Shown here: piece by piece, positions 5,914 through 8,013 of the stretch | How positions within the stretch are numbered: position 1 is the stretch's first letter | Layout of the letters: each line of letters starts with the position of its first letter | Assembly: GCA_902629585.1 (NCBI GenBank) | Contig: CACORI010000004.1 | Coordinates: forward strand, 1 to 64,000 | Direction: 5' to 3' | Source: an uncultured Pelagibacteraceae bacterium | GTDB lineage: Bacteria; Pseudomonadota; Alphaproteobacteria; Pelagibacterales; Pelagibacteraceae | Length of the DNA stretch: 64,000 nucleotides | Notes under the pieces: model-generated | What the model saw: only the letters and a program-made list of their open reading frames with translations | Told to the model about the DNA's origin: nothing | Databases searched by the model: none | Program-made: the position numbers and the translations under genes

Positions 5914-6915
5914 TTAATAATCTTTCACCATTTTTACTAAATAATCCATCATGCTGGGGTCAGTCTCTGGTAAAACTCCATGTCCTAAATTAAAAATATA
6001 AGGATGATCTTTAAATATATCTAGGTATTTTTTTGTCTCTTTTTTTAGGCTGTCTTTGTCCGTTAATAAGACCTTGGGATCCATGCCACCCTGTACAGGT
6101 ATTTTAATATTTTTTATAATTTGTAGAGGGTCAGTTTGATAATCAATACATATCGCGCTAGGATTAATAATATCACAATAATCTTTATAATTTTTTATAT
6201 TTCTTGGAAAACATATGACAGGAATATTTAAAGATTTTGTGTATTCGACTAATTTCAGAGTAGGTGAATATATAAATTTTTGTAAATTTTTATTATCTAC
6301 TAAACCAGCCCAGCTGTCAAAAATTTGTATAACTTCTGCGCCATTTTCGATTTGCTTTTTAATATGAAATTTTAAAAATTTATCTAAAATTAATAAAAGA
6401 TTATCTATTTGAGAATTATTTTCAAAGAAACTATTATCAATGCCTGTTTTTGGAGATTTTTTATTAATCATATAAACTAATAGAGTCCATGGGGCGCCTA
6501 CAAAGCCTATTATGTTTTTATTTTCAGTAAGTTTGTTTTTACTTACAAGATTAAGCATGTTGTAAATTGGGGAAGTTTTTTTTTCAAAATCAGACTCCTT
6601 TAATTTTAAAACTTTTTCAAAATCTATATTTCCTAATATAGGTCCAATATTTTTTTTAAATTCTACTTTCTGATTGAGACCAAAAGGGACCATTAATATA
6701 TCTGAAAATATAATTGCAGCGTCCAAATTAAACCTTTTTATCGGTTGTAAAGTAATTTCAGAGGATAAGGTTTTATTTAAACACAATTTTATAAAATCTG
6801 GGTTTGACTTTCTAATAGCTCTAAATTCAGGTAAATATCTACCTGCTTGCCTCATTATCCATATAGGATTAAAAGTTGTGTTTTTGTTAATAAAAATTTT
6901 ATCAAGTGGTTTCAT
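5914..6915 (-). CDS. hemE: uroporphyrinogen decarboxylase HemE
   Basis: Decarboxylates uroporphyrinogen III to coproporphyrinogen III in the cytoplasm. The 333-residue protein carries the N-terminal signature PIWIMRQAGRYLPEFR, the FSDILMVPFGL segment with the catalytic aspartate, and the C-terminal NLGHGVLPETDP motif. It is the first gene of the hemE-hemH-hemG operon and faces away from the AT-rich gap at 6916-7185. In Caulobacter and Rickettsia the gene next to the replication origin is also hemE, which helps identify that gap. Confidence 0.96.
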   Translation of the reverse strand: MKPLDKIFINKNTTFNPIWIMRQAGRYLPEFRAIRKSNPDFIKLCLNKTLSSEITLQPIKRFNLDAAIIFSDILMVPFGLNQKVEFKKNIGPILGNIDFEKVLKLKESDFEKKTSPIYNMLNLVSKNKLTENKNIIGFVGAPWTLLVYMINKKSPKTGIDNSFFENNSQIDNLLLILDKFLKFHIKKQIENGAEVIQIFDSWAGLVDNKNLQKFIYSPTLKLVEYTKSLNIPVICFPRNIKNYKDYCDIINPSAICIDYQTDPLQIIKNIKIPVQGGMDPKVLLTDKDSLKKETKKYLDIFKDHPYIFNLGHGVLPETDPSMMDYLVKMVKDY

Positions 6916-7185
6916 ATTAAAAATATATTTAATTATAGTAATAGTTTTAAGTCTTGTGAATAATGGTGATTAAGTTTTATAAACATAATATTAACAACTT
7001 ATTAACATCATAGATAAATTAATATTGTTTAAATTGAAGCTTTTTTGATTTTTATTATATAACACAAGAAGTTTGACCTAATTTATTATAATTGTTAATA
7101 AAACCGTGATTTTACAATGTTAATTTAATAAAAATTAAATTGAGTAATTAATTTAAAATAATACAAATTTATTAACAAATTATTC
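6916..7185. other. candidate chromosomal origin of replication (oriC)
   Basis: This 270-base gap between divergent hemE and ppsR contains three exact copies of TTATTAACA: 6999-7007 (+), 7093-7101 (-) and 7169-7177 (+). A near copy, ATATTAACA, is at 6988-6996. TTATTAACA is one base from the DnaA-box consensus TTATNCACA. The stretch 7121-7170 has only three G/C bases and could be the unwinding element. Known comparison: the alphaproteobacterial origin lies between hemE and the ppsR-maf-aroE-coaE-dnaQ block, exactly as here, and genes point away from the gap on both sides. The boxes are seen directly; the origin function is inferred. Confidence 0.72.
6991..7006 (+). promoter_or_regulatory. CtrA-type site TTAA-N7-TTAAC in the candidate origin
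   Basis: The sequence TTAACAACTTATTAAC matches the full CtrA recognition pattern TTAA-N7-TTAAC. It overlaps the DnaA-like boxes at 6988-6996 and 6999-7007. In Caulobacter, CtrA represses the origin by binding such sites among the DnaA boxes. In an AT-rich gap the match could be chance, and this window does not show whether the organism has CtrA. Confidence 0.35.
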
Positions 7186-8013
7186 ATGATTAATACATAT
7201 CAGATTTATTTAATATCAGACTCAACTGGTGAAACCTTAGACAGAATATTCTTGGCTTTAAAAGCCCAATTTTTAAATATTGAATACAAAATCCATTCTT
7301 ACTCATTTACAAGAACAGAAAACCAGATATTAAAAATTTTAGAAGACGCGGAAAAAAATAAAAATTCTATAATCTTATATACTATTGTTGATAACAATTT
7401 AGCCAAATATTTAGCTAATGTAAGTGAGGATAAATTAATCCCTTGTTTTGGGGTTTTGGGTAATTTAATTTTAAACTTTTCGAAAATTTTAAACCAGAAA
7501 GCAAACCACGAGCCTAGTGGTCAACACAAGCTAAATGATGAATATTATGACAGAATTGAAGCTATACAATTCACAATGAACCATGATGATGGAAATTTAA
7601 TAAACGAAATTGATAAATCCGACATAATCCTTGTTGGGGTAAGCAGAACAAGCAAAACACCCACTTCCATTTATCTTGCCAACAAAGGATTTAAAACATC
7701 CAATATTCCTTTGGTAAATGAAAATTCTTTACCTGAAAAATTGAAAAAAAACCCTAAACTAGCATGTGTAGTTGGGTTGAGTACAGAACCTGAAAGACTA
7801 GCAGATCTTAGAAAAAATAGGATGAGCAGCCTCAAGGAAACGGAGAACAGAAAATACACTAATTTAGAAAACATTAAAAAAGAGGTTTTGGATGCTAAAA
7901 AAACATTTAAAAAATATAAATGGCCATTAATTGATGTTACTAGAAAATCTGTGGAGGAAACTGCTGCTTCTATCATTAAAATTCACGAAATATATTCAAA
8001 TAATGCTAAGTAA
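7186..8013 (+). CDS. ppsR: pyruvate,phosphate dikinase / PEP synthase regulatory kinase-phosphorylase (PPRP, DUF299)
   Basis: Bifunctional serine/threonine kinase and phosphotransferase that switches PEP synthase or pyruvate phosphate dikinase on and off. The 275-residue protein begins with the typical YLISDSTGET motif and carries the family nucleotide-binding loop GVSRTSKTP (151-159) followed by YLANKGFK. Length matches the family. It is the first gene to the right of the candidate origin, the position held by its homologue in Caulobacter. Which target it regulates cannot be told here. Confidence 0.93.
   Translation: MINTYQIYLISDSTGETLDRIFLALKAQFLNIEYKIHSYSFTRTENQILKILEDAEKNKNSIILYTIVDNNLAKYLANVSEDKLIPCFGVLGNLILNFSKILNQKANHEPSGQHKLNDEYYDRIEAIQFTMNHDDGNLINEIDKSDIILVGVSRTSKTPTSIYLANKGFKTSNIPLVNENSLPEKLKKNPKLACVVGLSTEPERLADLRKNRMSSLKETENRKYTNLENIKKEVLDAKKTFKKYKWPLIDVTRKSVEETAASIIKIHEIYSNNAK

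Follow-up and report, generated by a model that had tools for sequence, protein, structure and literature searches.

The hemE-ppsR intergenic region

The window analysed here is a stretch of 64,000 nucleotides, in which a 270-bp gap (6916-7185) lies between hemE and ppsR. NCBIfam matches on both sides bear out the alphaproteobacterial origin context proposed earlier for this gap. An origin flanked by hemE and COG1806 is the arrangement of Caulobacter Cori and of Rickettsia (PMC1914354). The gap is 85.2% AT, against 71.3% for the window, and thus has the above-average AT content of origins of the hemE/COG1806 type. An Rfam scan of the window returned one tRNA only. The features of the locus are the following:

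5914-6915, minus strand: hemE, uroporphyrinogen decarboxylase, left flank (NCBIfam TIGR01464, hemE equivalog, above cut-off)
6885-6893, minus strand: TTATTAACA, possible extra DnaA box within the hemE 5' end (exact match)
6932-6960, minus strand: hemE promoter-like TTCACA-17-TATAAT (consensus scan, 11/12)
6955-6963, minus strand: R1-like consensus DnaA box TTATTCACA (exact TTATnCACA fit)
6977-6985, plus strand: DnaA-box-like TTATAAACA, first of three direct-orientation sites in 11-bp steps
6988-6996, plus strand: DnaA-box-like ATATTAACA (relatives mostly ATATTCACA)
6999-7007, plus strand: DnaA box TTATTAACA (exact match; relatives mostly TTACCAACA or TTACTAACA)
7093-7101, minus strand: DnaA box TTATTAACA (exact match and conservation)
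7110-7168, no strand: candidate duplex-unwinding element (lowest predicted duplex stability within the gap)
7169-7177, plus strand: DnaA box TTATTAACA just before ppsR (exact match and conservation)
7186-8013, plus strand: ppsR (COG1806/DUF299), right flank (NCBIfam NF003742, above cut-off)

The DnaA-box consensus is TTATnCACA (PMC5742627), and its best match in the gap is the minus-strand TTATTCACA at 6955-6963. The boxes at 6977, 6988 and 6999 share one orientation and are spaced by 11 bp, about one helical turn. The sequence-only reading had listed TTATTAACA at 6999 (plus), 7093 (minus) and 7169 (plus), together with ATATTAACA at 6988. All four are present, and the list is to be completed with TTATTCACA at 6955-6963 (minus), TTATAAACA at 6977 (plus) and TTATTAACA at 6885 (minus), which it omitted.

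The genome is available as a draft of 1,068,427 bases in 39 contigs, about 85% complete, which carries 59 copies of TTATTAACA. Their sole cluster genome-wide is formed by the four copies within 293 bp at 6885-7177, and the closest pair elsewhere is 566 bp apart. Dinucleotide-preserving shuffles of the gap contain a mean of 0.077 copies and none of 5000 reaches three; the earlier hand estimate was far fewer than one copy by chance. The three-copy excess and the uniqueness of the cluster show that the observation is genuine and does not simply reflect a high AT content. Uniqueness was tested genome-wide for TTATTAACA, and for the wider pattern on the window and sampled relatives: the gap is the densest TTATNNACA stretch of the window and of the sampled relative G082, and ties for densest in the sampled G012. 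A literature search on TTATTAACA showed no relevant paper among the matches listed.

Conservation in the Pelagibacteraceae

For the comparison, the gap was taken from 151 loci of the genus, which gave 127 distinct sequences and may count some genomes twice because two collections were used, and from 22 loci of other Pelagibacteraceae genera. The window itself is placed in this family by its best PpsR matches from named genomes, which all belong there, including Candidatus Pelagibacter ubique SCGC AAA795-A20. The arrangement was found in 22 of 24 other-genus loci, the exceptions being two loci of genus g2 (L135 and L136, from two complete genomes). In these, hemE was not detected within 1.5 kb upstream of ppsR, which suggests a rearranged origin neighbourhood. 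In other genera, the ppsR match of L117, L124 and L126-L128 includes one TGA, as a terminal or internal stop.

Enrichment of TTATTAACA at this gap in other SAR11 genomes, proposed earlier as a check, is pronounced: its density is 5.22/kb in 95 gaps and 0.0445/kb in the genome background (1.08 Mb from two complete relatives), a rise of about 117-fold. TTATnCACA is enriched about 61-fold (2.44 vs 0.040/kb), whereas the reversed-sequence control rises only 3.7-fold in the same gaps. The boxes are also kept in close relatives, the other point on which the proposal had been made to depend. Nowhere in the gap is conservation across the 127 distinct sequences higher than at the six box positions, where mean column identity is 0.91, against 0.80 elsewhere. 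Random sets of six 9-mers match the box identity at a frequency of 5e-5, a value that treats columns as exchangeable and leaves phylogeny unmodelled.

Where a box position varies, the sequence found is again a DnaA-box form, TTATCCACA among others. The box at 6955-6963 is TTATTCACA in 97 of the 127 distinct gaps (mean column identity 0.96), and that at 6977 is TTATAAACA in 69 and TTATTAACA in 11 (identity 0.91). Site 6988 reads ATATTCACA in 55/127, while at 6999 the prevailing TTACCAACA and TTACTAACA are accompanied by TTAACCACA, TTATCAACA and TTATTAACA. The box at 7093 is TTATTAACA in 93/127 gaps, with TTATTCACA and TTATCAACA as alternatives (identity 0.96). At 7169, TTATTAACA occurs in 77/127 genus gaps and 11/22 other-genus gaps, and TTATCCACA in L023.

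At about 7050-7070, many close relatives (L003-L018 columns) have a conserved TTTTTGTGGATTGT, which on the minus strand is CAATCCACA, a two-mismatch DnaA box. The window has TATATAACACAAG here, and the box is absent from its lineage.

DnaA and the form of the box

The repeated change of C to A relative to the consensus had been taken as the mark of a lineage-specific DnaA box. This idea is weak and at best partly supported: TTATTAACA is the majority form at just two of the six positions, 7093 and 7169, the most conserved box is the canonical TTATTCACA, and the DnaA recognition helix is standard. The RDHTT recognition motif and the basic-region RPRQ are kept in DnaA of this genome and of 21 related genomes; in E. 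coli DnaA, residues near these positions contact TnCACA and TTA (PMC5742627). With recognition helix and RPRQ region standard, a lineage-changed DnaA specificity is unsupported.

Pelagibacter-specific changes are found near the same motifs (VRPRQ for ARPRQ, NRD for GRD and IIHSVKT for VIHAVKK). DnaA domain IV of the Pelagibacter genus (L001, L169-L177) combines VRPRQ with SNRDHTTIIHSVKT, and that of the sister family ARPRQ with GGRDHTTVIHAVKK. Because such changes lie near DNA-contact motifs, DnaA preference may have shifted modestly in Pelagibacter. Other genera of the family, too, mainly have TTATTAACA at 7169, and this form is probably a tolerated DnaA box of weaker affinity in an AT-rich genome.

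Candidate unwinding element and putative hemE promoter

For predicted duplex stability, the 50-mers that start at 7110-7130 rank within the lowest 0.1-0.7% of the 64-kb window. On the other side of the gap, the strong box (6955-6963) faces hemE. In E. coli, R1 faces the DUE, and in B. subtilis the DnaA boxes face the DnaA-trios. A conserved block of period three lies 3' of the strong box, CTATTACTA in the window and ATACTAATACTA or TTACAACTACAA in relatives; its mean column identity at 6932-6945 is 0.88 over the 127 distinct gaps. The BUS layout is that described in B. subtilis (PMC8287927), for which at least three consecutive trios at most 16 bp from the box, beyond chance, were required. 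The run in the window is of three trios (shuffle P 0.21-0.72), 96 distinct relatives are not clearly above shuffles, and many relatives have CAA interruptions within the block. Given this run length and the overlap of the block with the hemE -10, DnaA-trios are not clearly supported, though the block may be of that kind.

The block also includes a TATAAT that is 17 bp from TTCACA, together an 11/12 sigma-70-like promoter reading into hemE whose -35 hexamer TTCACA falls inside the strongest DnaA box. The hemE leader would be about 10 nt, because the distance from the -10 to the ATG is short. The block at 6932-6945 may thus be DnaA-trio-like, or it may be the hemE promoter.

The conserved 9-mers might instead be the promoters and leaders of hemE and ppsR, which are transcribed divergently; this promoter-like site speaks for it, as does the 7169 box, which lies 8 bp ahead of the ppsR start codon. 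This is very unlikely: the boxes at 6977-7007 and 7093 are too distant from either start for a core promoter, substitutions preserve the DnaA-box pattern and not promoter hexamers, and divergent promoters are common, whereas such a cluster occurs only once in the genome. A dual use of some sites, as DnaA box and promoter, is likely.

Position on the chromosome

The GC-skew minimum, named earlier as one check on the candidate, was located in complete relatives, the genome of the window being a draft. Taken over an unbroken 300 kb that includes the gap, the cumulative minimum is offset from it by +28.8 kb in G012, -31.3 kb in G163 and +27.7 kb in G155, which places the skew switch within about 31 kb in these three genomes and no finer. 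Over the whole G012 chromosome, of which slightly more than half was sampled, the cumulative skew bottoms out at about 1.20-1.30 Mb, a range that includes the gap (1.262 Mb), and peaks at about 0.66 Mb. G082 has a chromosome of 1.438 Mb; from the gap, located at 910 kb, it is about half this length to the opposite skew switch, which falls at roughly 150-220 kb. The minimum is broad and mostly follows gene orientation, which counts against a fine placement of the origin. An orientation-corrected skew at fourfold sites gave a signal too weak and noisy to use.

Some older skew studies assume the origin at dnaA, so that the hemE-ppsR gap would be only a regulatory DnaA-box cluster. A distance of only about 64 kb separates dnaA from the gap in G012, G163 and G155, and in G012 this puts dnaA at the margin of the broad trough in skew. 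However, skew in the three relatives remains below zero between -60 and -30 kb and does not become positive until past +30 kb. Of 22 genomes, 20 lack a TTATNNACA box in the roughly 400 bp ahead of dnaA, and TTATTAACA occurs in none of the 22 dnaA loci, where no box cluster is found. An oriC at dnaA was rejected on the course of the skew and the lack of a box cluster there, and is highly improbable.

Possible CtrA and IHF sites

CtrA control was considered because an exact TTAA-N7-TTAAC is present at 6991-7006, where it runs across the boxes at 6988 and 6999, and CtrA sites are known in the Caulobacter and Rickettsia origins (PMC1914354). That the TTAAC-containing repeats are CtrA response-regulator sites instead of DnaA boxes is hardly credible, since the spacing motif is present in only 47/173 gaps, close relatives replace it yet keep DnaA-box forms, and in 23 SAR11 genomes the proteins that best match Caulobacter CtrA at full length are only about 26-35% identical to it (approximate query sequence). 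A CtrA-controlled origin of the Cori subtype was discarded on the same motif count and protein identities. An orthologue, expected well above 26-35% identity, was not found in the 23 genomes with this approximate query, and the matches would, as expected at such identities, be other OmpR-family regulators. A paper on CtrA and alphaproteobacterial phages contains nothing on CtrA in SAR11.

The gap of the window lacks an exact IHF site, which may count against the origin reading; four one-mismatch matches are present, and exact matches occur in 16/173 gaps.

Comparison with known origins

The gap shares with Caulobacter crescentus Cori and Rickettsia prowazekii oriC the flanking genes, several DnaA boxes and an AT content above that of the genome (PMC1914354). 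It is shorter (270 bp vs about 380 bp or more), its CtrA-like motif is not conserved, a CtrA orthologue was not found in the 23 SAR11 genomes and an exact IHF site is missing here. Escherichia coli oriC likewise has a TTATnCACA box beside weaker boxes 2-4 bp apart, and an AT-rich element (PMC5742627). On the other hand, it has eleven or more boxes where this gap has about six, and here the phased array is opposed to the R1-like box, again with no exact IHF site. As in the Bacillus subtilis BUS, a strong box is followed about 10 bp 3' by CTATTACTA, with the complement 3'-GAT-AAT-GAT-5'. The SAR11 block differs in its trio run, which does not exceed that of shuffles, in the CAA interruptions and in its match to the hemE -10.

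The probable origin of replication and its significance

The gap at 6916-7185 is the chromosomal oriC of this Pelagibacteraceae genome, of the hemE/COG1806 (ppsR) type, with a probability of roughly 93%; that replication is initiated there we infer. The reading is well supported by the gene context, the uniqueness of the cluster and its conservation in relatives, all directly observed, and by the skew position and the lack of a rival cluster at dnaA. A literature search found no experimental mapping of a SAR11 oriC.

DnaA would bind the strong box at 6955-6963. Then, by analogy with E. coli, ATP-form DnaA would fill the weaker boxes phased by 11 bp at 6977, 6988 and 6999 and the outer ones at 7093 and 7169. 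The DnaA oligomer would open a stretch rich in AT, for which 7110-7168 and, on the hemE side, 6916-6950 are the likeliest candidates, and subsequently load the helicase for bidirectional replication.

A more specific proposal, speculative and on balance doubtful, is that of a minimal CtrA-free origin in which the strong box is also the hemE -35, so that DnaA loading and transcription of the haem gene would exclude each other, and the other boxes are mostly weak ones with A at position 6. If so, such weak boxes would be suited to slow, once-per-cycle initiation.

The origin is of an expected and known type and not a new kind of element. The new detail is modest: how the boxes are laid out in the family, that CtrA control is apparently lacking, and that the strongest box overlaps the likely hemE promoter. 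SAR11 are among the most abundant bacterial groups of the ocean. Growth-rate estimates from metagenome peak-to-trough ratios and the construction of replicating vectors both require an accurately located oriC. While a CtrA orthologue appears absent, the SAR11 origin keeps the ancestral alphaproteobacterial position.
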